Shown: piece after piece, positions 5,328 to 60,118 of the stretch | Layout: the number at the start of each line of letters is the position of its first letter | How positions within the stretch are numbered: the stretch's first letter is position 1 | Assembly (NCBI RefSeq): GCF_037023745.1 | Contig: NZ_CP146101.1 | Location: forward strand, 7,358,001 to 7,422,000 | Direction of reading: 5' to 3' | Source of the DNA: Streptomyces sp. SCSIO 30461 | Lineage (GTDB): Bacteria > Actinomycetota > Actinomycetes > Streptomycetales > Streptomycetaceae | DNA: 64,000 nt | Notes under the pieces: model-generated | Databases searched by the model: none | What the model was told of the DNA's origin: nothing | Seen by the model: the letters and a program-made list of their open reading frames with translations, nothing else | Position numbers and translations under genes: made by a program

Positions 5328-5329
5328 TC

Positions 5330-5894: not shown

Positions 5895-5923
5895 AGCGTA
5901 CCTAGCGCATCGACTCCGGTCAA
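5895..5923 (-). promoter_or_regulatory. predicted HrdB-type promoter of the rpsL-rpsG-fusA-tuf operon
   Basis: On the minus strand TTGACC (5923-5918) and TACGCT (5900-5895) are separated by exactly 17 bases, matching the streptomycete vegetative consensus TTGACA-17-TAnnnT. The start point would be near 5888, giving a leader of about 185 bases before the GTG of rpsL. The rest of the 5702-6079 gap shows no gene. Confidence 0.75.
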
Positions 5924-6079
5924 AACAAATGCCCGCCACCCCGGCTCGGGGGGGTCTCACAGTGCCTTCACGAGTGCGCTGAGCCCTTCCTCGCCGACCG
6001 CCGCACGCTCGGCGACGAAGCCACGGTCGCGCGGACGGCACCCGGAGCGTGGTTCTCCGTCGCCTCCCGCAATGGCCGG

Positions 6080-6121
6080 AGGGCGGCTGCCCCGCGCATC
6101 ATCGCGCGGGGCAGCCGCCCT
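6080..6121 (-). terminator. rpoBC operon terminator
   Basis: A long perfect stem (AGGGCGGCTGCCCCGCGC paired with its complement, loop ATCATC) starts 15 bases after the rpoC stop. It marks the end of the rpoB-rpoC transcript. No T-tract follows. Confidence 0.88.
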
Positions 6122-6135
6122 CTCAAGCTGCTCGC

Positions 6136-10047
<3,912 letters not shown>

Positions 10048-34496: not shown

Positions 34497-34526
34497 GCCG
34501 TCAACGGGCCACCGCCGCCGGACCGA

Positions 34527-34559
34527 GTCCGGGGCCTGAGCCGCCATCAGGCCCCGGAC
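34527..34559 (+). terminator. terminator of the FG-GAP gene
   Basis: GTCCGGGGCCTGA pairs with TCAGGCCCCGGAC over a 7-base loop, 30 bases after the stop codon. Confidence 0.8.
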
Positions 34560-34676
34560 GGCGCACCTGTCCCTCGCAAGGGTTCCCGCACCAGGGCGAG
34601 GGGCCCGGCTTGTCCAGTCCAACGACATCGCGGTGAACGGTTTGCCTGCGCCGGAGCGGTCGCGACCCAGCAGCCG

Positions 34677-34722
34677 AAAAAAGAAACGGCCCCTGCCTGC
34701 GAAAACACAGACAGGGGCCGTT
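34677..34722 (-). terminator. strong intrinsic terminator downstream of tRNA-Tyr
   Basis: On the minus strand AACGGCCCCTG pairs with CAGGGGCCGTT (plus three more pairs beyond a mismatch) and is followed by TTTCTTTTTT (34686-34677). This is the best classical terminator in the window. Confidence 0.9.
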
Positions 34723-34731
34723 CTCATCGCG

Positions 34732-34813
34732 TGGCGGCGCCAGGATTCGAACCTGGGTAGGCTAAGCCGACGGATTTACAGTCCGCTCCCATTGGCCACT
34801 CGGGCACACCGCC
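34732..34813 (-). tRNA. tRNA-Tyr (GTA)
   Basis: An 82-base class II tRNA: acceptor GGCGGTG/CGCCGCC plus A, anticodon GTA in GACTGTAAATCC, long variable arm, T-arm CCAGGTTCGAATCCTGG. As I recall, tRNA-Tyr is the chromosomal target of the integrating plasmid SLP1 in S. coelicolor; no duplicate of its 3' half is visible in this window. Confidence 0.96.
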
Positions 34814-35025
34814 ATGGGATCGCTGCCGGAGTGTCCGCTCTCGGCGGTGCTCCCTGGCAACGACGTAAACAATACCTGATGCGCGGGGGTGCTTCGCCAC
34901 CGGATTGATCAGCGCCTCGACGGAGTCGGATGGCTAGGCTTGCCGCAGCGGTCCGCCGGAGCCCGGCAGGCCGTACAGGCACCGACACGCCACGATTCGC
35001 CCACGACATCAAGGAGCCACAGCAC

Positions 35026-35514
35026 ATGGCCGACTCCAGTTTCGACATCGTCTCGAAGGTCGAGCGGCAGGAGGTCGACAACGCCCTCAACCAGGCCGCC
35101 AAGGAGATCTCGCAGCGCTACGACTTCAAGAACGTCGGGGCGTCGATCTCCTGGTCCGGCGAAAAGATCCTGATGCAGGCGAACTCCGAGGAGCGGGTGA
35201 CCGCCATCCTCGACGTCTTCCAGTCCAAGCTGATCAAGCGGGGGATCTCGCTGAAGGCCCTCGACGCAGGTGAGCCGCAGCTGTCCGGCAAGGAGTACAA
35301 GATCTTCGCCTCGATCGAGGAGGGGATCTCCCAGGAGAACGCCAAGAAGGTCGCGAAGGTCATCCGAGATGAGGGGCCGAAGGGCGTCAAGGCTCAGGTG
35401 CAGGGCGACGAGCTGCGGGTCAGCTCGAAGAGCCGGGACGACCTCCAGGCCGTGATCGCGCTGCTGAAGGGCCAGGACTTCGACTTCGCGCTCCAGTTCG
35501 TGAACTACCGCTGA
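35026..35514 (+). CDS. YajQ-family nucleotide-binding protein
   Basis: The 162-residue protein [19 protein letters not shown] belongs to the YajQ (UPF0234) family, two RRM-like domains; family members bind cyclic di-GMP or RNA and some act as transcriptional co-regulators. KYDFKN-type motif appears as [14 protein letters not shown], and the C-terminus is the conserved [13 protein letters not shown] at 35026 has AAGGAG upstream. The last 20 bases of the gene form the left copy of a 21-bp direct repeat that bounds an integrated element, so the gene is kept intact while its natural downstream DNA has been displaced by 6.7 kb. Confidence 0.93.
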
Positions 35515-35515
35515 C
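35495..35515 (+). repeat. attL-like direct repeat (left copy)
   Basis: The 21 bases are identical to 42173-42193 and differ from them on both outer flanks. They comprise the last codons and stop of yajQ plus one base. Confidence 0.88.
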
Positions 35516-35557
35516 GATCCCCTTTGACCTGCACCAACGCGGTCAGGCTGAGCGAGC

Positions 35558-35578
35558 AGGGCACAACGGGGGCACATC
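35558..35578 (+). repeat. left arm-type repeat (AGGGCACA-N4-GGGCACAT)
   Basis: Two GGGCACA boxes with a 4-base spacer, 43 bases inside the left direct repeat. The same arrangement recurs near the right end at 42050-42069, in the same orientation, as expected for integrase arm-binding sites. Confidence 0.6.
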
Positions 35579-35642
35579 ACCGAGCACGGACTCGACTGCC
35601 GCCCTCGTTGTGTCCTCCTCGTCCGGCCACAGATGCGTGTAG

Positions 35643-37193
35643 GTGTCGACCGCCGCCGCACGCTCCGTGGTCCCCTTCCGCCGTCCGGAACGGGCGGCGG
35701 AGCCCTCGCGCACACCGCAGCAGGAACGCCAGCCGCCACAGGCCGAGGTACTGCGCTTGCTCGGACAGAACAGATTCCGCTATCTGCATCACAACGGCGC
35801 CCCGTACGCCGTGCCGTACGACGGCCCGCCCGTCGCCGTACCGCTTCGCGCCACCGCCAGTACGGGCACGGGCAGTCTGCGGCAGCGCCTCATTCACGCG
35901 TACGTAACTGAGCACAACCGCACCCCCTCGCAGTCCGCGCTCGCCGACGCCGTGGCGGCGCTCGACGCGCTCGCCATGCACGCGGCCGAGGTCGAGCTGC
36001 CGCTGCGCATCGCCGCCGACCCCAACGACGGCGTCGTGACATGGCTCGACCTCGGCCGCCCCGATGGGGAGTCGGTACGCCTCGCCCCAGGCGAGTGGGC
36101 ACTGACCCATCCCGACCCTGAGATCGGGCCCGTATGGCGACGTAGCAGGCTGGTGCGCCCTCTGCCGCGCCCTGACCGGGTAGCGGGTGGCTGGCGCGCG
36201 GGCATCGAGGAGTTCGCCGAACTGCTGCCGTTCACCTCCGAGACGCTGCCGCTTGCCGTCGGCTGGCTGCTCGCCGCGCTGCGCCCAAATATCCCGCGGC
36301 CGGTCGCGTACCTGACGGGCGAGCAGGGCACAGGCAAGAGCACGTCGGGGCAGATGCTCGCCGGGGTCATCGAGGGCGCCCGCGCTCCCCTGCGCCAGGC
36401 GCCCGAGAACCTGCGCGACCTCGGGCCGACCACCGCCGCCGGATGGGTGCTCGCCCTCGATAACCTCTCAGGCTTGCCCGGGTGGTTGTCCGATGCCCTG
36501 TGTCGCATCGTCACTGGCGACGCGCAGGTGACGCGCGCTCTGTACACCGACGATGACGTGAACGTGTTGACCTACCAGCGACCTGTACTGCTCACCGGGA
36601 TCGACCTCGGGGCGCTGCGCAACGACCTCGCCGAGCGGATGTTGCCACTCGAACTCTCACCCATCTCTCGGCACAAGCGGCGCACCGCGGGCGCCTTGTG
36701 GGCGGCGTACGAGCAGGCGCATCCGCGCATTCTTGGCGCGCTGCTCGACCTCGCCGCCGGCATCTGGGCCGAACTCCCGTATGCAGCAACTCACTTGACA
36801 GAGCGTCCGCGCCTGGCTGACTTCGCCGAACTACTGCACGCCCTCGACCGTGTCACCGGCTGGCGCAGCCTCGACGCGTTCAACGCCACACAGGACGCGC
36901 TGAACGAGACGGTTCTCGACGGGCACCCGGTTGCCGCCGCACTGCGTGAGTGGGCCACCTCTCACGCCTTCCCGCACGGCGGCTGGACGGGCACCATGGC
37001 CGAGCTACATCGGCTGCTCGGCAGCGACGGGCGCGGCTTCGCCGACGGCTGGCCCAAGACGCCCGCCGTCCTCAGCGCCCGCATCCGCCAGGTCGCCCCC
37101 GCGCTCCGCTCCCGAGGTATCCACGTGGCCCGCACCTCGGGCAGCAACAAGCACGGGAAGACATGGGCCGTGACCTACATCCCGCCGTCATGA
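35643..37193 (+). CDS. primase/helicase-type P-loop ATPase of an integrative element
   Basis: A 516-residue protein. The first 45 residues are Pro/Arg-rich and disordered; residues 45-185 resemble the accessory domain found before such ATPases (YLHHNGAPYAVPY, VTEHNRTPSQSALADAV). The ATPase core has Walker A TGEQGTGKST at 225-234, a Walker-B-like VLALDNLSGLP around 269-279, RIVTGDAQVTRALYTDDD and a sensor-type VLLTGIDLGALRNDLAERML. The C-terminal ~110 residues look like a winged-helix DNA-binding part. Family members sit in Streptomyces plasmids and integrated elements, often after a Prim-Pol gene, absent here. The GTG start has no strong Shine-Dalgarno, so an upstream fusion or loss is possible. 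Confidence 0.75.
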   Translation: MSTAAARSVVPFRRPERAAEPSRTPQQERQPPQAEVLRLLGQNRFRYLHHNGAPYAVPYDGPPVAVPLRATASTGTGSLRQRLIHAYVTEHNRTPSQSALADAVAALDALAMHAAEVELPLRIAADPNDGVVTWLDLGRPDGESVRLAPGEWALTHPDPEIGPVWRRSRLVRPLPRPDRVAGGWRAGIEEFAELLPFTSETLPLAVGWLLAALRPNIPRPVAYLTGEQGTGKSTSGQMLAGVIEGARAPLRQAPENLRDLGPTTAAGWVLALDNLSGLPGWLSDALCRIVTGDAQVTRALYTDDDVNVLTYQRPVLLTGIDLGALRNDLAERMLPLELSPISRHKRRTAGALWAAYEQAHPRILGALLDLAAGIWAELPYAATHLTERPRLADFAELLHALDRVTGWRSLDAFNATQDALNETVLDGHPVAAALREWATSHAFPHGGWTGTMAELHRLLGSDGRGFADGWPKTPAVLSARIRQVAPALRSRGIHVARTSGSNKHGKTWAVTYIPPS

Positions 37194-37259
37194 CCCGCCA
37201 CCCGCCCTCGACGCGCCCCGGAACGGCACCCCGCCGCCCCGGGGCGCAGCCGTCTCTCG

Positions 37260-37576
37260 GGGGACGCGTGGGGGACGACAGGGGACGCGTCTCGCACCGC
37301 GCAGCGTCCCCGCGAAACCCTGTTCCTGCCTGCGGAAACGGACGAACGCCCCCACCAGGAGGACGCGGGGGACGCTCTACCCCCCTCTCCTCTCTGTCCT
37401 GATGAGAAGAGGAGGGAAGAAGGGAGAGAGCAGCCCGGAAAGTGCGTCCCCCACGTCCCCGCCGTCCCCCGGCCACACTTCAAAATGTCGCGCTGCGACC
37501 GGTCGCGGCCTTGCGCGCGCGGGCGCGCGCGAATACCGCACCCCACTGACATTCGGTGTCGGCTGCGGAGGGGACG
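37260..37576. repeat. nine GGGGACG heptamers, iteron-like (candidate origin)
   Basis: GGGGACG occurs on the plus strand at 37260, 37271, 37281, 37368 and 37570 and on the minus strand (CGTCCCC) at 37305, 37445, 37454 and 37463. The first three are spaced 11 and 10 bases, the last inverted three exactly 9. The region lies directly after the helicase-type gene, in a 390-base gap without genes, next to a GC-alternating tract (GCGCGCGCGGGCGCGCGCG near 37512-37530). Confidence 0.7.
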
Positions 37577-37583
37577 TCTCTCG

Positions 37584-37826
37584 TCAGCAGGGGTCGAGGA
37601 AGCGTGCTGCCTCGCGGGCGTCCGGAGCGACGCCGACCGGTGTCCAGGTGCGCCCGTCCCACTCCAGCAGCAGGCGGGGGGCAGCAGGGGCTACGTGGGC
37701 GGCGTGGACGCCGGGGGCGAGAGGCAGAACGCGGCGAGTGCCAGCGATCTGCCGATCCGAGGCGCGCTGCCGATCGCGGCGCGCGAACCAGTCGGCTAGC
37801 GGTTCATTCTCGGGTTGCTCGCCCAC
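37584..37826 (-). CDS. small conserved-looking protein downstream of the methyltransferase
   Basis: I do not recognise a named domain. The 80-residue product starts at the GTG at 37826, 11 bases after the methyltransferase stop and behind a strong TAGGAGGG. It contains WFARRDRQRASDRQIAG, VLPLAPGVHAAHVAPAAPR and LLLEWDGRTWTPVGVA and ends RFLDPC. The WDGRTWTPV strand-turn looks like a small beta unit. It is the last gene of the minus-strand operon of the element. Its 3' end reaches the iteron-like region. Confidence 0.65.
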   Translation of the reverse strand: MGEQPENEPLADWFARRDRQRASDRQIAGTRRVLPLAPGVHAAHVAPAAPRLLLEWDGRTWTPVGVAPDAREAARFLDPC

Positions 37827-37836
37827 CCTCGCCCTC

Positions 37837-39000
37837 CTATCGCTGCGCGCGTGGTACGCGGTTGTCTGGTTCGTCCAACCATGGTGTAGCACTGCCAGGC
37901 GTGATCGTGAGGCCGAACCTGTCGACTGCTGGCTGTCCCTGCGATTCCCACCAACGGTAAGCCGCTTCTACCTCTGTCCAGAGTTGGCGGGGTCCAGCCT
38001 GGTAGACCTCGCCGGGTTCGCCGACGGCTGCCCACCGTACGGCCGCCCACGAACGGTCATTCAGGCTGTAGAACCACGCGGCATGGTTGCCGTCGGGCTG
38101 CTCGTAGATGGTGTGGGTGCACGACGGTACGGTGAGGCCGATGATGAACTGGGTGGCGTCGAGTTCCATCGGTCCGATGTCGGCGGAACTACTGTCGGCG
38201 GCAGTCCAGTCGGTGACGTAATCGGTGTGCTGCGGCCAACTGCCCCGGTCGTGCCGGTCCTTCATGAATTCCACAGCCCTGGTGAAGCGGCCCGATGCGG
38301 TACCGCCATTCACGACGAGACGGACGATGGCGTCACGACTGGTGTAGTGCGTGCCGTAGGGGGCGACGATCACCCCGCCGGGGCGTGTCTGTGCGATCCA
38401 CGCGGGCGGGATGGCACGCACGGCGTAGGTGGCCAGGATGCGGTCGTACGGTGCTGTTGGCAGGTAGCCGTCGCGTCCGTCGCCGATAACCATCGTGGTG
38501 TAAAGGCCCATGCCGCAGAGACGTTCGCGAGCGGCCCGGGATACAGCCGGGTCAAGATCGACGGTGAAGACGCTTCGCCATCCGAGCCTGTGAGCGAGCA
38601 GTCCCGCTGTCTCGCCCGCGCCGGTTCCGACATCGAGTGCCTGCATGCCCGCGTCCACGTCGAGATCACCAAGCGCGCCGTAGACAACGCTCGGCATGCT
38701 GGCGCTGGACGTCGGCACGTTGCCGGGGGCGGTTCCGCGGTGGGCGCCATCGTCCCATTGGGTAACGATCGGCATGTCGGCATCGGCGTACCGGTGCCAG
38801 GCGTCGGGGGCGTCGGACCGGCTGACGGCGGTGGCCTTCCCTGTTTCCATGTTGAAAGGCCACATGAGGTCGGGAAGGAAAGCGGCGCGGTCGACGGCCG
38901 CGAACGTGGGTGCCCAGTCTGAGGACATCGCACCCGTCTGGAGCAGGGCGCGCCCCAGCCGAGTACGGCTGGGGCGCTCCTGGTGCTGTTGGGCGGTCAC
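37837..39000 (-). CDS. PIMT-type SAM-dependent methyltransferase
   Basis: The 387-residue enzyme resembles protein-L-isoaspartate O-methyltransferases of the kind found with ribosomal peptides in actinomycetes. The N-terminal FAAVDRAAFLPDLMWPFN and DMPIVTQWDDG and the substrate-loop PTSSASMPSVV match PIMT architecture. SAM motif I is ALDVGTGAGE at 121-130, motif II VFTVDLDPAVS, and post-motifs IGDGRDGYLP and YDRILATYAV follow. A C-terminal domain of about 170 residues is additional to plain PIMT. Its GTG overlaps the stop of a 35-codon ORF (GTGA), so translation of both is coupled. Possible role: methylating the peptide or another Asp/iso-Asp substrate (inference). Confidence 0.8.
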   Translation of the reverse strand: MTAQQHQERPSRTRLGRALLQTGAMSSDWAPTFAAVDRAAFLPDLMWPFNMETGKATAVSRSDAPDAWHRYADADMPIVTQWDDGAHRGTAPGNVPTSSASMPSVVYGALGDLDVDAGMQALDVGTGAGETAGLLAHRLGWRSVFTVDLDPAVSRAARERLCGMGLYTTMVIGDGRDGYLPTAPYDRILATYAVRAIPPAWIAQTRPGGVIVAPYGTHYTSRDAIVRLVVNGGTASGRFTRAVEFMKDRHDRGSWPQHTDYVTDWTAADSSSADIGPMELDATQFIIGLTVPSCTHTIYEQPDGNHAAWFYSLNDRSWAAVRWAAVGEPGEVYQAGPRQLWTEVEAAYRWWESQGQPAVDRFGLTITPGSATPWLDEPDNRVPRAQR

Positions 39001-39104
39001 TTGCGGTGGCCTCCATCACCGGGCGGGCTACTGCCGTCAGGGGACGGCGGCGGCGGGGGCGGCGGCGGTTGGATGGGCGCGGGCTTTCCAGAGTGGTTTC
39101 CCAC
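38997..39104 (-). CDS. 35-residue proline-rich peptide, coupled to the methyltransferase
   Basis: A GTG at 39104 preceded by AAGGGAGAG (8-base spacing) opens a 35-codon frame whose stop overlaps the methyltransferase start. The peptide begins MGNHSGKPAPIQ (GTG read as Met), has eight consecutive prolines, then SPDGSSPPGDGGHRK. It includes Asp-Gly twice and Asn early on; Asp-Gly is the sequence most prone to isoaspartate/succinimide formation, the substrate class of PIMT enzymes. An ATG-led longer version (to 39134) exists but lacks a Shine-Dalgarno. It may be a ribosomal peptide precursor or only a translational leader. Confidence 0.55.
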   Translation of the reverse strand: MGNHSGKPAPIQPPPPPPPPSPDGSSPPGDGGHRK

Positions 39105-39201
39105 TGGATTCTCTCCCTTCGTGGTTTCCATCATGACGCTGGACGGGTGTGCCCTTGCTGGAATTCGGGCGCTCTCGACCCGTCCCAACACCAACCACCA
39201 C

Positions 39202-39552
39202 TCACTCTCTGCGGGTTAGGTGGTCGGCGCGTGGTGCGCCCTGCGGCGGGGTGTGCGGGCCCGTGGGGAACGGGTGGGATCGTCCCCGCCGCAGGGCAGT
39301 CTCTAGAGGGCAGTTCGAGCACGCTGTTCGGCGCGGTGTATCGGTGACCTGGTGGGGCTGATGTCCGGGCCAGAGACTGATGTACTCATGTCGTGCTCCG
39401 TCCATGAGTGGTCGGGAGCCGTGATGGTGGGCGAGCTGGCTGCGTCGCCGACGTGGGGGGGTGCAGATCAGCGCGGGCGGGGCGATGCCGAGGGCGGCAA
39501 GGACAGCGACGGCTCGGCCTGGTCCACGGGGCCGGGCGTGCTGGCCCCTCAT
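39202..39552 (-). CDS. hypothetical 116-residue protein, translationally coupled
   Basis: I recognise no family. The ATG at 39552 overlaps the stop of the upstream gene (ATGA) and has AAGGTG upstream, which supports it as real. The product is basic and His/Pro/Arg-rich with the early stretch AVAVLAALGIAPPAL, a HEYISLWPGHQ segment and a CxxC in ACSNCPLE. Low sequence complexity in the last 40 residues weakens the call. Confidence 0.5.
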   Translation of the reverse strand: MRGQHARPRGPGRAVAVLAALGIAPPALICTPPRRRRSQLAHHHGSRPLMDGARHEYISLWPGHQPHQVTDTPRRTACSNCPLETALRRGRSHPFPTGPHTPPQGAPRADHLTRRE

Positions 39553-39806
39553 GACGTCACCTTCGGGTGGGTATCGGGGGTGACCGGCACGGCGGGTTTG
39601 AGCGTTGTAGGGTCTGCCGTCCACTCCCACCCGCTCCCGTCAACAGGCCGGAGATGAGCGGTGCGCTTCACCACGCGGTCCGTGGCGCGGTTCCGCTCTA
39701 CCAAGACACTGCCGAGGATGCCCCGGCGGCCAGTACTGGGGTCGATGACTTCGCGGCCGGCGAGGCGATGCTGCACGCTTTCAAGGCACGTGTCCTGACC
39801 TACCAC
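39549..39806 (-). CDS. small protein of a type common in Streptomyces elements
   Basis: An 85-residue frame from a GTG behind AAAGGAGG. The core EVIDPSTGRRGILGSV and LRPVDGSGWEWTADP resembles short beta-rich proteins next to regulatory genes in actinomycete elements, usually ending WEADPxxL (from memory, no named domain). It heads the minus-strand operon: this gene, the 116-aa gene, the peptide, the methyltransferase, the 80-aa gene. Confidence 0.62.
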   Translation of the reverse strand: MVGQDTCLESVQHRLAGREVIDPSTGRRGILGSVLVERNRATDRVVKRTAHLRPVDGSGWEWTADPTTLKPAVPVTPDTHPKVTS

Positions 39807-39953
39807 CGGATGCCTCCTTTCGTTGGGGGGCGCTCAACCCGCTCTCTTACGGGAGCCGGGCGAGCGGGTTCCCGTGCCACGCGGGTACAGGTGTTTGGAG
39901 ATTGCGGCTCCCGAGCGGCTGTGACGATTCGACCGCACCGAGTAGCGTCGGTG

Positions 39954-39985
39954 TGACTCCGCGGGATGACTCCAACTTGGGGTCA
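39954..39985. promoter_or_regulatory. candidate operator between the element's divergent operons
   Basis: TGACTCC occurs at 39954-39960 and 39967-39973, and the second copy pairs as an imperfect palindrome with GGGGTCA at 39979-39985. The 231-base divergent gap between the small-protein gene and the XRE regulator is where autoregulation would act. Confidence 0.4.
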
Positions 39986-40037
39986 CCGTTGGAGGTTTGG
40001 CCGTGGCGTCAAAGCAGGCTCACTCGGGGGAGTCGGT

Positions 40038-41306
40038 ATGAGCAGCAATCCGCAAGACCCGCGCGCAGTAGTCGCCGCGTTGCTCGACGACCCGCGCCTA
40101 CTGTCGGCGTGCGCCGAGCGGGACATGGGCGCCGTGTTCCGACTGCTCAACAAACGGGGCGTAAGCACGCGCCGCCTCGCCGCGGCAGCAGACATCAGTC
40201 AGGGGCGTCTTTACGACTACATGAATGGGCGCACCCGAGTTGAAAAGCTGGCGCTGTTCGAGCAGATCGCGGACGCCTTCCACATCCCTGGCCGCCTCCT
40301 CGGCCTGTGCCGCCGCGCGTGGGAGCCGCCCGTAGCAGCCGTGCCGCAGCAACGCTCCGACTATGCAGGGCCGGACGGCAATGACCTGACCGCCATGGAC
40401 GCCTTCCGAAATGCGGACCGCCAGGCGGGGGGCGGGCGCCTGTACGGAGCGGTCGTACGGCATCTCACTGACCGGGTCGCGCCGCGACTGGTCGACACCA
40501 GCACTGGAGCGCAGGTGTTCGCCGCTGCGGCGGCACTGACGGAGATGGCGGGGTGGATGGCCCACGACTCGGGACACGATGACCGAGCCGACCGACACTT
40601 CGCGCGTGCGCTTCCCCTCGCTCGCGTCGCGGGTGACCTGCCGCTGGCAGCGCATGTTGCCGCCAGCAGTAGCCACTTAGCCCTCCAGACCGGCGACGCT
40701 GCGGGAGCGGCAGGCTGGGCACGGAGCGGGCTGGGCCTTGCTGCCCAAGGGCCGAGGATTCCGGCCTTGACCGCGCGGCTGCACACGATGCGGGCCCGAG
40801 CTCTCGCCGCAGAGCACCAGCACGCATCAGCCATGCGGGCGCTCGACGACGCTCACCGCGACCTGGAGACGGCGGGTGCGGGTGCGATGCATCCATGGTT
40901 GAGTCCGTTCGATGCCGCCGCCCTCGCCAGCGAATCCGCCCTCACGCTGCGGGACCTCGGGCAGTACGACAAGGCCCTTACCGCCGCCGAGCGTGCCGTA
41001 GCCCTGCGGGAAGACGGTAGGGCCCGCTCGCTGGCACTGAGCCGCATCACGCTCGCCGCTATCTACGTGCACCGGAGCGACCTTGATGCGGCGGTAACCG
41101 TCGGCCATGAATTGCTCATGACCAGCCCGACCCTTGGTTCTGTGCGGGTCGTTCAGGAACTCGACTCCCTTCGGCGGCTGCTGGAGCCCCACCGCGGGTA
41201 CCTGCCTGTGCGTGAGTACCTGACGCGCTTCGACGACGCAAGGAGGGCCAGAATGCTGCTCCTGGCCGACATCATCCCGCCATCCTCGGGAGGCACACCC
41301 GTATGA
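40038..41306 (+). CDS. XRE-family regulator with TPR-like C-terminal domain
   Basis: The 422-residue protein starts MSSNPQDPRAVV behind GGGGGAG. A helix-turn-helix occupies residues ~35-75 (GVSTRRLAAAADISQGRLYDYMNGR in part, residues 41-65, then VEKLALFEQIADAFHIPGRLLG). The remaining ~330 residues are helical repeats rich in Ala/Leu with TPR spacing (LRDLGQYDKALTAAERAVAL, ITLAAIYVHRSDLDAAV). Such regulators can bind peptides or pheromones. The stop overlaps the NUDIX start, so the two are co-translated. It is divergent from the methyltransferase operon and is its likely regulator. Confidence 0.85.
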   Translation: MSSNPQDPRAVVAALLDDPRLLSACAERDMGAVFRLLNKRGVSTRRLAAAADISQGRLYDYMNGRTRVEKLALFEQIADAFHIPGRLLGLCRRAWEPPVAAVPQQRSDYAGPDGNDLTAMDAFRNADRQAGGGRLYGAVVRHLTDRVAPRLVDTSTGAQVFAAAAALTEMAGWMAHDSGHDDRADRHFARALPLARVAGDLPLAAHVAASSSHLALQTGDAAGAAGWARSGLGLAAQGPRIPALTARLHTMRARALAAEHQHASAMRALDDAHRDLETAGAGAMHPWLSPFDAAALASESALTLRDLGQYDKALTAAERAVALREDGRARSLALSRITLAAIYVHRSDLDAAVTVGHELLMTSPTLGSVRVVQELDSLRRLLEPHRGYLPVREYLTRFDDARRARMLLLADIIPPSSGGTPV

Positions 41307-41824
41307 GGCCCACGGCCCCGAACTCCACCGATCCGGTCGCTTGGAATGCCTATCTGGCGGAGGGGAACGCCACGCAGGCACGCAAGCGTGTAGCCGCTGA
41401 CGTCCTGCTACGTGATCCCGGCGGCCGCGTGTTGCTGGTGAACCCCACCTACAAGCCGGGGTGGGACCTGCCAGGCGGAATGGCCGAGGAGAACGAGCCT
41501 CCGCATGAAGCCGCCGCGAGGGAACTGCACGAAGAACTCGGCTTGGAGATCAGCCCGCGTGTGCTGCTGGTGGTCGATTGGGTGCCCCCGCATGGGCCGT
41601 GGGACGACCAGATCGCATTCATCTTCGACGGCGGCACCCTCGGACACGAGGAGGCCGAGGGGTTGCGTCCCCACGACGCCGAACTCTCCGAGATCATGTT
41701 CGTCGCACCCGACAAAGCCGCCGCGTTTCTTCAAGATCGCCTCTGCCGCCGCTTCGATGCGGCGATGCGTGCCGCTTCGGCCGGTATCCCTGCGTACCTC
41801 CACGATGGTGTGACCGTGATGTAG
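41303..41824 (+). CDS. NUDIX hydrolase
   Basis: A 173-residue hydrolase of X-linked nucleoside diphosphates. The Nudix box reads GGMAEENEPPHEAAARELHEE plus LGLEI, with the Gly, both Glu pairs and REL in place. Upstream VAADVLLRDPGGRVLLVNPTYKPGWDLPGG forms the first strand pair. The ATG overlaps the regulator stop as ATGA. It may process a signal nucleotide or clean up oxidised nucleotides; substrate not inferable. Confidence 0.88.
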   Translation: MRPTAPNSTDPVAWNAYLAEGNATQARKRVAADVLLRDPGGRVLLVNPTYKPGWDLPGGMAEENEPPHEAAARELHEELGLEISPRVLLVVDWVPPHGPWDDQIAFIFDGGTLGHEEAEGLRPHDAELSEIMFVAPDKAAAFLQDRLCRRFDAAMRAASAGIPAYLHDGVTVM

Positions 41825-42172
41825 AAACCTTGCCGCCTACCGCGCACGCACGCCGCCGTGTTGCGGCCAATGCTGTCCGGCTCGGGCGGCCACTGGTCTG
41901 TCGGCGTGGCTCGACCGCCGCCACGGCCCCCGCTCGTTCCCGGGACGCTTCCTGAATCCGGGCTACCCGTCCCGCCAGGTCTCCCCCACGCCCCCGATAG
42001 CCTGAGCGAGCACTCGCGGCACGAAACGCCAGTGCCCCGGCTGCGCGTGAGGGCACAGCCAGGGCACATGGGCCTAGAAAACCCTGAGAAACGACAGCAA
42101 CCACTGAGTGTAGTTTTCGCAGGTCAGGGCGCTAATGCTCGCGTCGGCGCAGGTCAGAGGGCCGAGAGGGAA
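41825..42172. other. right end of the element, no gene
   Basis: These 348 bases carry the right arm-type repeat (42050-42069) and a pair of CAGGTCAGRG decamers 30 bases apart (42121-42130, 42151-42160). No coding sequence is supported. Confidence 0.45.
42050..42069 (+). repeat. right arm-type repeat (AGGGCACA-N4-GGGCACAT)
   Basis: Same 20-base layout and orientation as at 35558-35577, differing only in the 4-base spacer. Confidence 0.6.
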
Positions 42173-42193
42173 GTTCGTGAACTACCGCTGACC
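42173..42193 (+). repeat. attR-like direct repeat (right copy)
   Basis: Exact copy of the yajQ 3' end at 35495-35515. Here it is not part of any reading frame with yajQ similarity upstream. Confidence 0.88.
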
Positions 42194-42395
42194 AGGCACG
42201 CCTGGCCCCGCATGAGCGTGGCCAGGCGGATCCCTGACGCTCCGGCCGCCGCCCAGGACCTGACCCTGGTACGCGGCCGGATCCGCACCCGGGCCCGCCG
42301 GTGGCACACGTGATGTCCGATTACTGCCAGCCCTGCCCGACCCGCAGGTGCAGACTCGGAAGTCGCGAGACGCACGAGGTGAGGACGGAGACACC

Positions 42396-42914
42396 ATGAC
42401 CGTGTACACGGAGATCGACAGCCCGCTGGGCACCCTGCTGCTGGTCGGCGAGGAGTCCACCACCGCCCTGGGCGGCGTGGCTCTGGTGTCGCTCTCCCTG
42501 CCGGGGCAGAAGGGCGCGGCGGTCGTCCGGGACGGCTGGCAGCGTGCGACGGAGGCGTTCGAGGAGATCGCCAGGCAGTTGCGGGCGTATTTCGACGGAG
42601 AGCTGAGGAGCTTCACGATCGAGTACGCCCATGCGGTGGGCGGGGGTTGGGGCACCGCGTTCCAGCAGCGGGTCTGGGGGGCGGTGGACGGGATCCCGTA
42701 CGGGCGGACCGTCACCTACGGGCAGATCGCGGAGCAGGTCGGCGCCTCGGGGGCCGGGGTACGGGCGGTGGGGACCGCGATCGGGCGCAATCCGCTGCTC
42801 GTGGTGCGGCCCTGCCATCGGGTGATCGGCGCCGACGGCGCCCTGCGCGGTTACGCGGGGGGCATCGAACGCAAAGAGCGGCTGCTCGGCCTGGAAGGCG
42901 CGCTGGCCCCATGA
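42396..42914 (+). CDS. ogt: methylated-DNA--protein-cysteine methyltransferase
   Basis: A 172-residue suicide DNA-repair protein that takes O6-alkyl groups from guanine. The active-site PCHRVIG is at 139-145 with acceptor Cys140; the recognition helix and Arg finger region GVRAVGTAIGRNP and the upstream TAFQQRVWGAVDGIPYGRTVTYGQIA are standard for Ogt/MGMT. Start MTVYTEIDSPLGTLLL at 42396 has GAGGACGGAG upstream. It is single-domain, without an Ada activator part. It lies 200 bases beyond the element's right end. Confidence 0.94.
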   Translation: MTVYTEIDSPLGTLLLVGEESTTALGGVALVSLSLPGQKGAAVVRDGWQRATEAFEEIARQLRAYFDGELRSFTIEYAHAVGGGWGTAFQQRVWGAVDGIPYGRTVTYGQIAEQVGASGAGVRAVGTAIGRNPLLVVRPCHRVIGADGALRGYAGGIERKERLLGLEGALAP

Positions 42915-43097
42915 CCACCGGGCTGTTTCCGGGAGAGCGCGCCGAGGTTGCGCCTGGGGCGGTGCACATACCCGGATGGCTTACATCACCTTTCGCGAGA
43001 CGGGGTTCGACGCCTGAGCAGCCGTGCGGTCGGCCGGTCATGCGGCCGCCGTGTGATCGGCCGGCGCCCTCGAGTGGTGCCGATGATGCCTGGATCA

Positions 43098-43126
43098 CAC
43101 CGGGACTCCGCCGGGAGTTCCCGGTG
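43098..43126. terminator. hairpin between convergent ogt and the GlsB-like gene
   Basis: CACCGGGA pairs with TCCCGGTG and an inner CTCC/GGAG extends the stem. It lies a few bases from the 3' end of the minus-strand gene and may serve both. Confidence 0.55.
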
Positions 43127-43132
43127 CGGCGC

Positions 43133-43402
43133 TCAACGTGAACGTGAGTGGCCGAACAGGATCCGGTAGGCGATCAGCAGAACGAGCGCGCCGCCGATGG
43201 CGGAGACCCAGGTGGCACCGTCGTAGAAGTCCTTTGTGATGGGCCGGTCCAGCCAGTGTGCCGATATCCAGCCGCCCACGAACGCACCCGCTACGCCGAT
43301 GATGGTGGTGCCTATGAAGCCCCCCGGGTCGCGCCCAGGCAGCAGTACCTTGGCGACGATCCCGGCGAGCAGCCCCAGGACTATCCAGCTGATGATGCCC
43401 AT
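43133..43402 (-). CDS. GlsB/YeaQ/YmgE-family small membrane protein
   Basis: An 89-residue transglycosylase-associated family protein with three hydrophobic helices: MGIISWIVLGLLAGIVAKVL, GGFIGTTIIGVAGAFVGGWI and a C-terminal WVSAIGGALVLLIAYRILFG. The Gly-rich motif between helices 1 and 2 (PGRDPGGFIGT) is the family signature. Members are linked to cell-envelope stress; the molecular role is unknown. Confidence 0.88.
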   Translation of the reverse strand: MGIISWIVLGLLAGIVAKVLLPGRDPGGFIGTTIIGVAGAFVGGWISAHWLDRPITKDFYDGATWVSAIGGALVLLIAYRILFGHSRSR

Positions 43403-43509
43403 GCTGTGGCCTACCTCTCCGCACAGGGTGGTGTGCGCGTTGTACGGGTCCTCGCTCTCGGGGACGCTCGGGAGTCGGTGCGCGGTTGCGCTGTCAGTAG
43501 GGTGTGGAC

Positions 43510-54704: not shown

Positions 54705-55999
54705 GCGGGGTCGTCTCCTTCGGAATCGGCCCGTGCGGCGTCGGTTCCTTCGGCGGAGCCGTCTGCCGTGCGGGATGGCGGTGACTTGGGGTCGGGTTTC
54801 CGGTCCGCCTCGGCCGCGAGCCCGGAAGGTCCTCCACCGTCGGGGCCCGGCTCGGCCTCTGCCGCTGCCTCGGGACCCGGCTCGGTCCGGGACTCGGGGG
54901 CGAGCCCCGTCTCAGAGGCGGGCCCTGCGTCAGGAGCCGGTGCGGATTCTCCCGGTGCCGGGGCTCCGGTCGTCTCCGCCTCGGAGGCCGATGCGGAGGT
55001 GGCGCCCGCCTCAGGAGCCGGTGCGGATTCTCCGGCCGTCGAAGCGCCCGGCGATTCCGCCTCTGACGTGGCGGCTTCGAACGCCGGGCGAGCGTGGTGC
55101 CATGGAGCGTCGGCACTGCGGGGGCGCGGGCTCGCAGCGGGCGGGGCGGGCGGGGCGGTGTCCTCCGCGCGCTGGGTCGACGAGCCCTCGCTCGCGCTGC
55201 GGGCCCGACGCGCCGCCGCCGCGGGCGGCTGCTGGCTCGCCGAGCCCTCGGCCGCGGTGCGGGCCCGACGTGCGGAAGCGGGGGACGCTGCCGCCGCGGC
55301 CTCGGGGGCGGTCTGACTGGCGGACCCCTCCGCCACACTGCGCGCACGGCGGGCCGGGCGCTCCCCCGTGGCGCCCGCGGCGCGCGGAGTGCGTGCGGGA
55401 CGGGCCGGGGCGGGGGGGAGCTGGCCCTTGAGCGGTCCCCACTCGTTCGGGTCGGGGACACCGGGCGGAAGCATCTGGCGGCGCTTCGGTCCGCCGTGTT
55501 CGGACTCCCCCGGCTCCTTGGCGCCCGGCCATGCCTTGGCGACCCGCGCCGCGAGCACGAAGTCCTTGCGCAGCGGGTGGCCTTCGAAGTTCTCCGGCAG
55601 GAGCAGTGGCACGAGGTGCGGGTGATCGGTGAAGCCGACACCGAACATCTCGTATGTCTCGCGCTCGTGCCAGGCCGCGCCCGCATAGACACCGACCGCC
55701 GTCGGAAGAGTGGGAGCCTCGTGCGGCACCGTCGTGCGCAGCAGCAGACGGCGGACCGAGTGCTCCTCCTGGCCGGGCGTCCCCAGCGCCGCGACATGCG
55801 CGCAGACGCGGAAGCCGGTGCCGGGCTCGTCGACGGCGCTGAGCCAGTCGAAGTAGGTGCAGCCGAGCTCGTCGCGGGCGGTGCGCAGCGCGTCCAGCCA
55901 GCCGGTGGCGGGCACGTCCACGGTCAGCAGGTCGTACGCCGCCTCCGCGGTGGCCTCAGGCCCGAAGCGCTCGGCGATATGCGTCTCGAAGGAGCTCAC
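54701..55999 (-). CDS. nuoC: NADH-quinone oxidoreductase subunit C with a 230-residue low-complexity tail
   Basis: 432 residues from the GTG at 55999 that overlaps the nuoB stop. The NuoC domain occupies residues 1 to ~155, with the 30-kDa signature [20 protein letters not shown] and [15 protein letters not shown]. The region up to ~195 ([19 protein letters not shown]) is conserved-looking. The rest is disordered, Ala/Pro/Glu/Ser-rich, with three copies of RRAR[S/T]xxEGS[A/S]xQ at 20-25 residue spacing and two of GESAPAP[E/D]AG. Normal NuoC is about 200-250 residues. Confidence 0.9.
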
Positions 56000-56646
56000 G
56001 AGGCGGCTCCCGGGGTGGTGGGCCCCGGAGTGCCGCCAGGGGCGGGAGGCGGGGTGACCAGGCCGCTGCGGAGCTGGCCGGCCGACGCCTGGCCAGGGGC
56101 CGCGCCGTACCGCTCGCTCAGCGACTCGCGGGCGATCTTCTCCTGGAGCTTCAGGATGCCCTGGAGCAGCGCCTCGGGCCGCGGCGGGCAACCGGGCACG
56201 TACACATCGACCGGGATGATCTGGTCGACGCCCTTGGTCACCGAGTACGAGTCCCAGTAGGGGCCGCCGCAGTTCGAGCAGGCGCCGAAGGAGATGACGT
56301 ACTTGGGCTCCGGCATCTGCTCGTAGAGCCGCTTGACCGCCGGTGCCATCTTGTCGGTCACCGTGCCCGACACGATCATCAGGTCCGCCTGGCGCGGTCC
56401 GGGCGCGAAGGGGATCACGCCGAGGCGGATGAAGTCGTGCCGTGCCATCGACGCGGCGATGAATTCGATGGCGCAGCAGGCGAGCCCGAAGTTGAAGACC
56501 CAGAGGCTGTAGCGGCGGCCCCAGTTCAGGACCACCTTCATCGGCTCCGGGGCAAGCCGGGAGAGCAGGCCCAGCTTCCCCCCGCGCTCGGTGACCGGGT
56601 CCGGAAGCAGTACGGGCTCGGGAGTCTTCTGTGGGGTCACGTCCAT
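55996..56646 (-). CDS. nuoB: NADH-quinone oxidoreductase subunit B (second cluster)
   Basis: 216 residues from ATG at 56646. N2-cluster cysteines are in place: GLACCAIEF (57, 58), [10 protein letters not shown] (123) and [12 protein letters not shown] (153). The C-terminal 40 residues are Gly/Pro-rich. It overlaps nuoA by 10 bases. All residues needed to bind the terminal cluster are there, so the subunit should be functional if it finds a NuoD partner. Confidence 0.95.
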
Positions 56647-57038
56647 GTGAGGACGCCCTTCTTCCATGCGTACAGCAGTCCCACGGCCAGGAAGCCGAGG
56701 AAGATGAACATCTCCACGAGTGTCGTCGCGCCGTATCCGGGCGCGGCGAAGACCGTGGCCCATGGGAACAGGAAGATCGAGTCGACGGCGAAGATCACGT
56801 ACAGGAAGGCGTACACGTAGTAGCGCACCTGGGTGTGGGCCCAGCCTTCCCCGACGGGGTCTACACCGCACTCGTACGTGAGCAGCTTCTCGGGGGTCGG
56901 CACCGCGGGGCGCAGCAGACGGCCCGCGCCGAAGGCCACCGCCACGAAGAGGACTCCGATGACGGCGAGCAGCCCGACGACCGAGTAGCTCTGGAAGTAG
57001 TCGGCCGCGAGTACGGTCGGTTCGGTGGGTTCCGGCAC
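56637..57038 (-). CDS. nuoA: NADH-quinone oxidoreductase subunit A (second cluster)
   Basis: 133 residues, three helices. [43 protein letters not shown] (in overlapping parts) contains the conserved Cys of the flexible loop and the acidic residue of TM2. First gene of the cluster; promoter candidate at 57118-57146. Confidence 0.94.
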
Positions 57039-57117
57039 GTCCGTCCCTCGCTCCCTACCCCTGCGTTCGATGAATCGTTACGACGACCTGGTGCGATCGA
57101 CGATCCTTTCGCACGGG

Positions 57118-57146
57118 AGTCTAGGCCCTAGTAAGGGCACGGTAAG
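57118..57146 (-). promoter_or_regulatory. possible promoter of the nuoA-nuoN cluster
   Basis: On the minus strand CTTACC (57146-57141), 17 bases and TAGACT (57123-57118). The -10 fits well, the -35 only in part. A small palindrome GCCCT-AGTA-AGGGC (57125-57138) lies inside the spacer and could be a regulator site. Confidence 0.35.
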
Positions 57147-57283
57147 CAGCCGTATCACGCTTTGGTCGGGGATCGGCCACCCGGAGGTCCCGCGGAAACG
57201 GCTCGACGCGGGGGATATCCCTACTCTCCAGCGGCCCACATACCCCATGGCGTGCGCGGATCCGACCCGGCAGGCTGGCACCC

Positions 57284-58558
57284 ATGACCGTGACCAGCAC
57301 TTCTCCCGGTGACAGCGCGGGCACCGGAATCGGCACCGGAATCGGCACCGGCGCAGGCGCAGGCTCCGGCACTCACGCCGGCGTCGGCGCCGCGAAGCGG
57401 GACGCGGCACCACCGCCCGCACGTCTCGCCTACGACCGGTACACCTGGAAGGAGATCGCCTATCTCCTCTCCGGTCTGCCTGCCGCCGTCATCGGATTCG
57501 TCTACACGGTGACCGTGGTCTCCGTCGGGGCGGGGCTGTTCGTCACGGTCGTCGGCCTGCCGCTGCTGGTGCTCGGTCTGGCCGGTTCCCGACTGGTGGG
57601 CAAGGGCGAGCGGGCACGGGCGCGAGCGCTGCTCGGCGTCATGGTGGACGAACCGAGCGCCATGCCGAAACGCACGGGTGACGGGCTCTTCGCCCGGCTG
57701 TGGCTGGGCCTGAAGGATCCGGTCGCCTGGCGATCGGTGCTCTACGCGGTCATCCGGCTGCCCTGGGGCATCGTCGGCTTCACCGTGGCACTGACCGGGC
57801 TCTTCGTCCTGTGGCCGGTCCTTCCTTACATCGCCAGGGGCATGACCAATGTCGACCGCGCCCTGGTCCGCGCGCTGCTCTCGCCCTCCGACGAGCTGGA
57901 GCGGCGGATCGCCGAGCTGGAGTCGGACCGGGGTGTGGTCGTGGACACCGCGGCAGCCGACCTGCGGCGCATCGAACGCGATCTGCACGACGGCGCACAA
58001 GCACGACTGGTCGCCCTCGCCATGGACCTCGGCCTCGCCAAGGAAAAACTCCACGAGGACCCCGACGCCGCGGCACACATGGTCGCCGAAGCACACGGCG
58101 AGGTGAAACTCGCCCTCCAGGAACTACGCGACCTCGCACGCGGCATCCACCCGGCCGTCCTCACCGACCGCGGACTGAACGCCGCCCTGTCCTCCCTCGC
58201 CTCCCGCTGCACCGTCCCCGTCACCGTCACCGTCGACCTCCCGACCCGCCCCGCCGAAGCAATCGAAGGCATCGCCTACTTCACCGTCTCCGAACTACTC
58301 CAGAACGTCAGCAAGCACGCCCGCGCAACCCGCGCATCCGTCGACGTCCGACGCACCCATAACCGCCTGATACTCCAGGTCAGCGACAACGGCCAAGGCG
58401 GAGCCGACATCACAGCAGGCAGCGGACTGACAGGACTCGCCGAACGCCTGGACGCAGTCGACGGAGTACTGACCACCGACTCACCCACCGGCGGCCCCAC
58501 CCTCATCACCGCCCAACTCCCCTGGCGCGAGCGGGCGGCGGTCCCTCCCTCCCGGTAG
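57284..58558 (+). CDS. membrane sensor histidine kinase, NarX/DesK-type (first of pair)
   Basis: 424 residues. The N-terminus is a Gly/Thr repeat (TGIGTGIGTG); the sensor domain has two pairs of helices around a cytoplasmic loop (GLPAAVIGFVYTVTVVSVG, LFVTVVGLPLLVLGLAG; LPWGIVGFTVALTGLFVLWPVL), as in the actinobacterial "putative sensor" family. The HisKA_3 motif RRIERDLHDGAQARLVALA carries the phospho-acceptor His235. The ATPase has LLQNVSKHARA (N box), DNGQGGAD and GSGLTGLAERLDAV (G boxes). The 616 bases from 57914 to 58529 are repeated perfectly in the next gene. Divergent from nuoA. Confidence 0.9.
   Translation: MTVTSTSPGDSAGTGIGTGIGTGAGAGSGTHAGVGAAKRDAAPPPARLAYDRYTWKEIAYLLSGLPAAVIGFVYTVTVVSVGAGLFVTVVGLPLLVLGLAGSRLVGKGERARARALLGVMVDEPSAMPKRTGDGLFARLWLGLKDPVAWRSVLYAVIRLPWGIVGFTVALTGLFVLWPVLPYIARGMTNVDRALVRALLSPSDELERRIAELESDRGVVVDTAAADLRRIERDLHDGAQARLVALAMDLGLAKEKLHEDPDAAAHMVAEAHGEVKLALQELRDLARGIHPAVLTDRGLNAALSSLASRCTVPVTVTVDLPTRPAEAIEGIAYFTVSELLQNVSKHARATRASVDVRRTHNRLILQVSDNGQGGADITAGSGLTGLAERLDAVDGVLTTDSPTGGPTLITAQLPWRERAAVPPSR
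57914..58529 (+). repeat. 616-bp direct repeat, copy 1 (kinase catalytic region)
   Basis: Identical base by base, as far as I can read, to 59498-60113 (offset 1584). It covers the dimerisation/His and ATPase domains. Confidence 0.9.
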
Positions 58559-58713
58559 GGAAAACCCCCGGGTCAAGACGGATACCGACCGCATGGTGCG
58601 GTCGGGGCACGCTCAGCAGCATGGAGTCCGTACCGCCGCCGCGGGACACGACCTGACGCAGCTGACCGGCCCGCCCGGGCAGTCCGGGCCGGGGCCGGCA
58701 CGGAGCGGGCCGG

Positions 58714-58753
58714 CTCAGCCCAGCCCCGACCAGCTCAGCCCAGCCCCGACCAG
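58714..58753 (+). repeat. two tandem 20-bp repeats
   Basis: The unit CTCAGCCCAGCCCCGACCAG occurs twice head to tail in the 225-base gap between the two kinase genes. It may be slippage; no gene or clear promoter is seen in the gap. Confidence 0.6.
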
Positions 58754-58783
58754 CCCGGTGCTGTCGGCCCAGGGCAGAAACGG

Positions 58784-60118
58784 ATGACGACGATGGCCAT
58801 GGCTTATCGGACGGGACCCGACACCCCGGCGCCCCGCTCCCGTCGCCTTCCCCGACCGCTGCGCGCACCGTTCGAGGCACGCACCTGGCGCGAGTTCTGC
58901 TACGTCCTGCTGAGCCTGCCGCTGAGCGTCGTGTTCTTCGGTCTCGCCCTCGGCCTGGTCGCGGCCGGGGCCGGGCTGGTCGTCACCTTCGTCGGCATCC
59001 CCGTCCTGGCCGCCGCCCTCGCCATGTGCCGCGGCTTCGGCGCGCTCGAACGGCTGCGGGCACGCACTCTGCTCGACCTGCGTATCGGCACCCCCGCCCC
59101 GGTCCGGCCCCGCGGCGGCGGCCCCATGGCCTGGGTCGGCGCGATGCTGAAGAGCGGGGCGTCCTGGCGGCATCTTCTCTACGCGCTGGTGCACATGCCG
59201 TGGGCGGTGTTCTCGTTCGCCGTGGCCCTGCCGCTCTGGGCCACCGCCTGGACCTGCGCCACGTATCCGCTCTGGCACTGGGTGTTCCCGGCGTTCGTCG
59301 GCCTCGACGGGCTCCAGCTCTACGGGGATCGTACGCACGCCCACTACCTCGACTCACCGGCCGAGCTGACCGCCACCTCCGCGGTGGGACTGCTGCTGGT
59401 GATCGCGACCCCGTGGATCGTGCGCGGGCTCACCACCGTGGACCGGCTGCTGGTCACGGGGCTGCTGGGACCGTCCCGGCTGGAGGGACGCGTGGTGGAG
59501 CTGGAGTCGGACCGGGGTGTGGTCGTGGACACCGCGGCAGCCGACCTGCGGCGCATCGAACGCGATCTGCACGACGGCGCACAAGCACGACTGGTCGCCC
59601 TCGCCATGGACCTCGGCCTCGCCAAGGAAAAACTCCACGAGGACCCCGACGCCGCGGCACACATGGTCGCCGAAGCACACGGCGAGGTGAAACTCGCCCT
59701 CCAGGAACTACGCGACCTCGCACGCGGCATCCACCCGGCCGTCCTCACCGACCGCGGACTGAACGCCGCCCTGTCCTCCCTCGCCTCCCGCTGCACCGTC
59801 CCCGTCACCGTCACCGTCGACCTCCCGACCCGCCCCGCCGAAGCAATCGAAGGCATCGCCTACTTCACCGTCTCCGAACTACTCCAGAACGTCAGCAAGC
59901 ACGCCCGCGCAACCCGCGCATCCGTCGACGTCCGACGCACCCATAACCGCCTGATACTCCAGGTCAGCGACAACGGCCAAGGCGGAGCCGACATCACAGC
60001 AGGCAGCGGACTGACAGGACTCGCCGAACGCCTGGACGCAGTCGACGGAGTACTGACCACCGACTCACCCACCGGCGGCCCCACCCTCATCACCGCCCAA
60101 CTCCCCTGGCGCGCGTGA
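58784..60118 (+). CDS. membrane sensor histidine kinase, NarX/DesK-type (second of pair)
   Basis: 444 residues. The sensor half differs from the first kinase (LLSLPLSVVFFGLALGLVAAG, LVVTFVGIPVLAAALAMCRG, an extra ~25-residue loop with YPLWHWVFPAFVGLDGLQLYG) but has the same topology; the catalytic half from LESDRGVVVDTAAADLRR onwards is identical. Phospho-acceptor His263. Different sensors joined to the same output domain should both phosphorylate the regulator encoded just downstream. Confidence 0.9.
   Translation: MTTMAMAYRTGPDTPAPRSRRLPRPLRAPFEARTWREFCYVLLSLPLSVVFFGLALGLVAAGAGLVVTFVGIPVLAAALAMCRGFGALERLRARTLLDLRIGTPAPVRPRGGGPMAWVGAMLKSGASWRHLLYALVHMPWAVFSFAVALPLWATAWTCATYPLWHWVFPAFVGLDGLQLYGDRTHAHYLDSPAELTATSAVGLLLVIATPWIVRGLTTVDRLLVTGLLGPSRLEGRVVELESDRGVVVDTAAADLRRIERDLHDGAQARLVALAMDLGLAKEKLHEDPDAAAHMVAEAHGEVKLALQELRDLARGIHPAVLTDRGLNAALSSLASRCTVPVTVTVDLPTRPAEAIEGIAYFTVSELLQNVSKHARATRASVDVRRTHNRLILQVSDNGQGGADITAGSGLTGLAERLDAVDGVLTTDSPTGGPTLITAQLPWRA
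59498..60113 (+). repeat. 616-bp direct repeat, copy 2 (kinase catalytic region)
   Basis: Perfect copy of 57914-58529; identity stops 5 bases before the stop codon and starts within the coding region at the sensor/output junction. Confidence 0.9.

Follow-up and report, generated by a model that had tools for sequence, protein, structure and literature searches.

We examined a 64,000-nucleotide stretch of the Streptomyces sp. SCSIO 30461 chromosome (NZ_CP146101.1, positions 7,358,001 to 7,422,000; hereafter the window, from genome G000), in which the host gene yajQ is followed by a 6.7-kb segment enclosed by a direct repeat, and compared it with genomes (G) and loci (L) of the same genus. The segment, 35495-42192, is in our judgement very probably a decayed small integrative element of a yajQ-specific tyrosine-integrase family, inserted at the 3' end of yajQ. 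The features that define it, in window coordinates, are as follows.

34731..34813, minus strand: tRNA-Tyr gene, just upstream of yajQ (context)
35026..35514, plus strand: yajQ (DUF520), the host gene, whose last codons and stop are the attachment site
35495..35515, plus strand: left repeat copy (attL), with the common core AACTACCG at 35503-35510
35525..35532, plus strand: arm motif TGACCTGC, 22 bp from the core start
35543..35647, minus strand: 3'-terminal piece of a yajQ-type tyrosine integrase gene, otherwise deleted (its final 34 codons, which include the presumed catalytic Tyr, plus the stop)
35647..35652, no strand: junction where the deletion joined the integrase gene to the replication gene (microhomology of about 3 bp; about 3.37 kb missing relative to locus L042)
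35643..37193, plus strand: ATPase without its native first codons, of the kind found after a primase-polymerase (prim-pol) gene in relatives; by position it is SCO4618/RepPP-like
42049..42192, plus strand: right end of the element, conserved (77% to L042) and containing GCAGGTCA twice, at 42119-42126 and 42149-42156
42172..42192, plus strand: right repeat copy (attR), presumed to be the original, displaced yajQ terminus
42199..42228, plus strand: terminator-like hairpin (from folding), probably yajQ's own, displaced by the insertion
42396..42914, plus strand: ogt, the direct successor of yajQ at several empty sites

The attachment repeat and the integrase remnant

A preliminary description of the locus had reported a perfect 21-bp direct repeat, one copy of which is the yajQ terminus. 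An exact-repeat search finds both copies of this repeat (AGTTCGTGAACTACCGCTGAC), 6677 bp apart from start to start; of the span given there, 35495..42193, the start holds, but the repeat stops at 42192, one base earlier. The left copy covers the yajQ stop codon and one base beyond it, the five codons before the stop, and two bases of the codon preceding those. In the whole 8.05-Mb genome the 21-mer occurs twice (its reversed control not at all), and 41 of 392 same-genus genomes contain it, the other 40 in one copy apiece. No repeated 21-mer arose in 20 Markov-3 shuffles of the window, and a chance repeat was thus ruled out. Inverted arm motifs, absent from the earlier account, adjoin both copies. 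A tRNA target was also considered and rejected, as the tRNA-Tyr gene lies outside the repeats and showed no second copy in a repeat search of 34500-43500; the target of SLP1, an actinomycete integrative and conjugative element (AICE), which we take to be tRNA-Tyr, would here be the gene beside yajQ. The window as a whole holds 602 repeated 21-mers, and among the 20 listed one is AGTTCGTGAACTACCGCTGAC and 19 lie in 54930-59513, a region of long exact direct repeats (e.g., 57914 versus 59498) with no relation to the yajQ element.

Just inside attL, on the minus strand, lies the strongest sign of an element, the end of an integrase gene that had been overlooked, reading DTYTHLWPDEEDTTRAAVESVLGDVPPLCPARSA followed by a stop; full-length integrases of relatives end in nearly identical letters at the same spot, convergent with yajQ. 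Only 34 of about 440 integrase codons are left, and the conserved Arg and His boxes, at the positions we assume for them, are gone. The closest intact relative element is that of L042 (12.3 kb). The window aligns to this locus in three blocks (35010-35652 to 14828-14186 at 89%, 35647-37551 to 10826-8941 at 84.5%, and 42049-42193 to 2157-2013 at 77%), and the L042 stretch missing from the window holds most of the integrase gene (int), an XRE-like, repressor-like gene (whose helix-turn-helix matches fall under the cut-off), an HTH_17 excisionase-like gene (xis) and a relative of prim-pol. A tblastn search of the window element with the L042 XRE-like, excisionase-like and prim-pol genes gave no match. 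This alignment to an intact relative shows that a deletion of about 3.4 kb removed int, repressor, xis and prim-pol. In G330 the integrase tail stops similarly, but the adjoining DNA differs, and a deletion common to the two genomes was rejected in favour of separate events. Integrase tails of unequal length were also seen in G192, G080 and G266.

Because the deletion took most of the integrase and the excisionase-like gene, no unaided excision is expected, and the element is probably unable to excise or replicate by itself. The integrated element that had been proposed is therefore supported, but as a decayed deletion derivative rather than a working element. Excision could still be brought about in trans by a related integrase, or by a second element arriving at the same site: both attachment cores and the arm motifs are kept in the window, and accretion and cis-mobilisation of decayed elements have been proposed (PMC9513070, in the part cited). 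We regard such residual mobility as improbable, since the nearest integrase elsewhere in the genome is only 40% identical, so that a second cognate integrase was rejected, and no relative of the excisionase-like gene remains in the window element.

Empty and occupied yajQ sites in Streptomyces

A joint pattern search found the yajQ end adjoining the end of this integrase in 17 of the 392 genomes, the window's included. By tblastn, the integrase is full-length and in one piece in 11 of them (G139, G199, G229, G268, G269, G279, G281, G299, G328, G337 and G338) and truncated or broken in six (G000, G018, G080, G192, G266 and G330). The right end, sought as the core with at most two mismatches plus GCAGGTC within 60 bp, was located in 12 of the 17, and was not found in the stretch examined in G018, G192, G229, G281 and G330. 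The 12 attL/attR pairs have 8 to 21 bp in common and all contain AACTACCG; TGACCTGC is exact at +22 in 11 of them (window included), and GCAGGTCA stands at -31 or -32 in 11. The 21-bp repeat is real, but only about 8 bp are common to all pairs, the remainder being a copy of the yajQ end brought by the element. The stop codon of yajQ is unlike between attL and attR in 7 of 12 pairs, and because of this the element appears to supply the last codon and stop of yajQ; integration apparently swaps in its version of the last base of the Arg codon and of the stop. Right ends lie next to ogt in four pairs (G000, G266, G268 and G299). When eight genomes were searched again (seven with two matches on one strand, plus G001), five of them (G199, G266, G268, G269 and G299) carried a pair of copies on a single contig, separated by 6-15 kb.

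Empty sites are equally visible. The preliminary description had predicted strains in which yajQ runs straight into the downstream sequence with a single repeat copy, and single-copy yajQ-ogt alleles were indeed found, in other species. yajQ leads straight into ogt in six of the eight relatives first compared (not in L001 and L004, where ogt is absent from the 1.5 kb examined), and across ten loci ogt starts 81-166 bp past the yajQ stop in seven, ogt not being seen in L001, L004 and L049; in the window, the stop of the right copy is about 204 bp from ogt. The joined window flanks align to L002 without a break over 1212 bp at 77.5%. Relatives also have occupied alleles at the same yajQ site, with integrases of full length. 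The hairpin noted just outside the right copy was confirmed by folding (42190-42250, -33 kcal/mol, z -2.9, with one of 200 shuffles equally good) and fits a displaced yajQ terminator; L004, with a single-copy yajQ end, has a strong hairpin there too.

A scan of genome contigs with an alignment of the integrase gave 54 loci, 18 with yajQ, and in 16 of these the integrase, or what remains of it, immediately adjoins yajQ. A tree of 53 integrases from 58 loci (the remaining loci being too short) places all 18 integrases directly at yajQ within one clade of 19 (support 0.85). In the annotated intact relatives int, an xis-like gene and a replication gene recur in that order, and the replication genes vary: prim-pol plus ATPase (L042, L060, L061, L062, L067 and L072), D5-type (L041 and L043), DUF3987 (L063) and AAA_25 (L039, L154, L155 and L157). 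A known plasmid or phage carrier of the integrase was rejected, as all matches were below 60% identity (106/106 plasmid and 894/894 phage records); IMG/VR yielded seven distant integrase relatives (25-35%), with yajQ in none of the stretches examined.

From this anatomy and from the relatives, the following history can be proposed. Reading from yajQ, the ancestor would have had int followed by a repressor-like XRE gene, both on one strand; next, on the other, an xis-like gene, prim-pol and the ATPase; and finally cargo. Its attP would have held a copy of the yajQ terminus, and recombination within the roughly 8 bp of AACTACCG would have left yajQ whole, with the last codon and stop of the element, and pushed the old terminus and its terminator to the right end (attR). 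A later deletion of about 3.4 kb, seen in the alignment to L042, at about 3 bp of microhomology, joined int codon ~407 to the first ATPase codons; the ATPase frame persists, as does cargo that includes a regulator-NUDIX pair and what is likely a pamtide pair. We consider this joint explanation, the steps included, highly probable; the remnant, for one, abuts attL in the orientation seen in relatives.

Several observations weigh against this history. The common core and the right arm in the attachment pairs follow partly from the construction of the search pattern; the pattern did not impose the left arm, the arm spacing or the differences in stop codon. In L073 and L085 yajQ is 5.4 and 2.4 kb off and its end abuts another integrase-like tail, and their integrases fall outside the yajQ clade, while its 19th member, L064, has no yajQ in its locus. 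The empty alleles seen all belong to other species, and that attR is the original yajQ terminus is an assumption. G+C content does not set the element apart (69.0% versus 69.3-69.7%), and the ATPase frame is open and looks constrained (ratio of nonsynonymous to synonymous substitution rates, 0.09 versus L042); it follows that the deletion happened recently or that the ATPase remains in use. Another alternative, that no element was ever inserted and that we see a chance or gene-conversion repeat or an old chromosomal island, would account for a G+C content like that of the surroundings, but is contradicted by the integrase remnant, the empty sites in relatives and the attachment pairs in 11 other genomes; we take it as refuted.

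The 3' end of yajQ is a new attachment site, the kind of element is already known, and the window copy is a remnant. Among open-access papers, none was found that pairs yajQ with an integrase, or yajQ with an integration site and Streptomyces. That a protein-coding 3' end is unusual as attB, as had been remarked, is fair as a trend: in the passages cited, tyrosine integrases of AICEs mostly target tRNA genes, with the pSLS subfamily as the exception (PMC3218068). It is not unprecedented, as the cited parts of other accounts describe PAISt at the 3' end of bacA (PMC4057263) and rlmN and a glycosyltransferase gene as AICE insertion targets (PMC9513070). PAISt shares with the yajQ element a protein-coding 3' end as attB in Streptomyces and differs, as described there, in being a large island with an 8-bp palindrome (TTCATGAA) and another target gene (PMC4057263). 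The yajQ site adds to the protein-coding attachment sites one whose common core is short and at which integration leaves a visible mark, the exchanged stop codon, that serves across Streptomyces to distinguish empty alleles from occupied and decayed ones. Since yajQ is conserved among the relatives that were compared, the full integrases are candidates for a new integration-vector site.

Kind of element: conjugative, satellite or other

AICEs are defined, in the text cited, by an integrase, a Rep protein and FtsK/TraB (PMC3218068). In the window PF01580 has no match and the integrase is truncated. One possible reading, which we hold doubtful, is that of a decayed strict AICE, SLP1-like, that once had the FtsK-type transfer protein TraB and has since lost it. 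The element shares with SLP1-type AICEs a tyrosine integrase and flanking att sites, and prim-pol followed by a replication gene in its intact relatives is the SLP1 arrangement SCO4617-SCO4618 (PMC3218068, as far as cited); it differs in its target, the yajQ 3' end, and the window has lost int, xis and prim-pol. PMC9513070 describes, in the portion cited, AICEs that have decayed until part of the integrase, the cargo and a pair of direct repeats are left, and relatives whose alleles are empty or intact; this resembles the present case, except that the target gene is another and that the intact relatives of the window are known from their genes, not as conjugative. In the yajQ element of G337, a 751-amino-acid open reading frame (ORF) matches PF01580 above the cut-off (28.3 versus 24 bits), but it also matches other AAA families, and the NCBIfam FtsK score is just 23.7 bits. 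Moreover, PF01580 detects FtsK proteins in all six genomes searched, yet it has no match within the four complete yajQ elements examined (G199, G268, G269 and G299, the last being the closest relative).

Phage-inducible chromosomal islands (PICIs) offer a second model. Staphylococcal islands carry int and a repressor one way and xis and replication genes the other, and some PICIs form capsids of their own. The yajQ family, or the branch of the window, might likewise be PICI-like satellites spreading in helper-phage particles, with the window a decayed one, which we consider rather unlikely. The size and layout of the intact relatives agree with capsid-forming PICIs, and the 14.2-kb element of L154 (G139), with both att sites and int, primase-like and AAA_25 genes, encodes at 5192-7653 a P27-type small terminase, TerS (TIGR01558, 58.3 bits, cut-off 45.6), and an HK97 capsid protein (TIGR01554, 64.7 bits, cut-off 27.5). 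Tape-measure genes lie in the G279 and G338 elements, with a weaker match in G229 (L153 6933-10292, L155 8502-11153 and, weaker, L152; elements of 13-14 kb, the L152 right end not being found), and the ATPase model matches PriRep1 and D5-type helicases. Against this, among 36 occupied loci, in which some genomes are represented twice, tblastn with the L154 TerS and capsid proteins found no relative in the window or in any other genome; the window's branch of the family yielded no packaging gene; and the fold match of the ATPase is weak (query template modelling (TM) score ~0.3-0.45). In gene content the L154 element is PICI-like, whereas the window, with no relative of either gene, differs from capsid-forming PICIs. 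The family may nonetheless include phage satellites. In the excerpt cited, the likeness of Streptomyces satellites to PICIs is limited to the portal protein (PMC10690885).

A broader reading, which we offer as speculation, would make the yajQ elements a satellite family, or a platform shared by satellites and other small elements, that replaces the last codon and stop of yajQ when it integrates and repeatedly carries clusters for ribosomally synthesised and post-translationally modified peptides (RiPPs) with an aspartyl methyltransferase, of different classes (a pamtide for the window, graspetides for G266 and G192, a radical-SAM type for L072); in that case the window copy would be a satellite-derived island fixed by integrase loss. 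Through the intact relatives, among them carriers of TerS, capsid or tape-measure genes, the presence of PICI-like satellites in Streptomyces chromosomes becomes open to test, and so does the transfer of RiPP clusters by such satellites.

The likely pamtide pair and other cargo

The gene set reported earlier (a helicase-type ATPase, a methyltransferase, an XRE regulator and a NUDIX hydrolase, followed by ogt) was recovered by ORF and domain searches. Beyond the ATPase, the element carries the following.

37584..37892, minus strand: DUF6087 protein (judged by eye, the methyltransferases of L123-L125 are followed by a similar ORF)
37837..39000, minus strand: PCMT/TIGR04188-like peptide aspartyl O-methyltransferase (PAMT)
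38997..39134, minus strand: 45-amino-acid Pro/Gly-rich peptide with an SPDG motif, probable type I pamtide precursor, overlapping the methyltransferase start
39549..39806, minus strand: small ORF (by eye, a similar ORF stands upstream of the pair in L124 and L125)
39966..41306, plus strand: XRE/TPR regulator (NsdA family)
41303..41824, plus strand: NUDIX hydrolase

The precursor candidate, which ends in SPDGSSPPGDGGHRK, was not in the first account. Its methyltransferase matches PF01135 over residues 98-224 of 387, leaving a C-terminal extension, and TIGR04188 at 2.3e-80 (270.7 bits, under the cut-off of 380); the adjacent peptide of about 45 residues is rich in Gly, Pro and Asp, and no other modifying enzyme accompanies it. 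Relatives of this PAMT at E <= 1e-60 occur in 107 of the 392 genomes, the window's included. Among the 30 best methyltransferase loci (the window's own included), 24 have a peptide just upstream that passes a composition filter, written after several such peptides had been seen, and many end SPDG...GDG.HRK; one of the 24, L148, is doubtful and looks wrong. Peptide and PAMT are likely a precursor-methyltransferase pair of a type I pamtide (imiditide). In the parts cited of PMC10787088 and PMC13001092, these systems likewise have a Gly/Pro-rich precursor of about 45 residues with a conserved Asp, an adjacent C-terminally extended PAMT and a two-gene layout with no other modifying enzyme beside the pair; the window pair, recognised from its genes, differs in sitting on a decayed mobile element. 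The cassette as a whole (37584-39806: small ORF, Pro-rich peptide, PAMT and DUF6087) has a similar order, by eye, in L124 and L125.

A PAMT is present in four of 27 occupied yajQ loci compared, some of them cut by contig ends (the window, G192, G266 and L072). G266 has an ATP-grasp gene, a PAMT and a TIGR04186 precursor, all above cut-offs; L040 (2149-4824) and L160 are yajQ elements with eroded integrases and an ATP-grasp RiPP cluster that includes a PAMT. In L072 (1874-3957) a radical SAM/SPASM gene adjoins the PAMT downstream of an occupied yajQ, and, as the right end was not seen, this PAMT is presumed to lie inside the element.

The ATPase has no Pfam or NCBIfam match. Its structural model (mean predicted local distance difference test score 75.6) matches D5/SF3-like helicases and PriRep1 at E ~1e-4, and a replicative AAA+ helicase is likely. 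A PHROGs scan of 70 mixed proteins is represented by the best 25 of 63 families. Elsewhere in G000 (C1:7666408-7667793) lies a second ATPase, 43% identical, with an FtsK match at 7662720 (29.7 bits), which from its genes would be another AICE-like element in this genome. ATPase relatives also stand on the tRNA-Tyr side of yajQ in G162, G168, G187 and G020, which makes the tRNA-Tyr/yajQ stretch a possible hot spot for integration at two sites.

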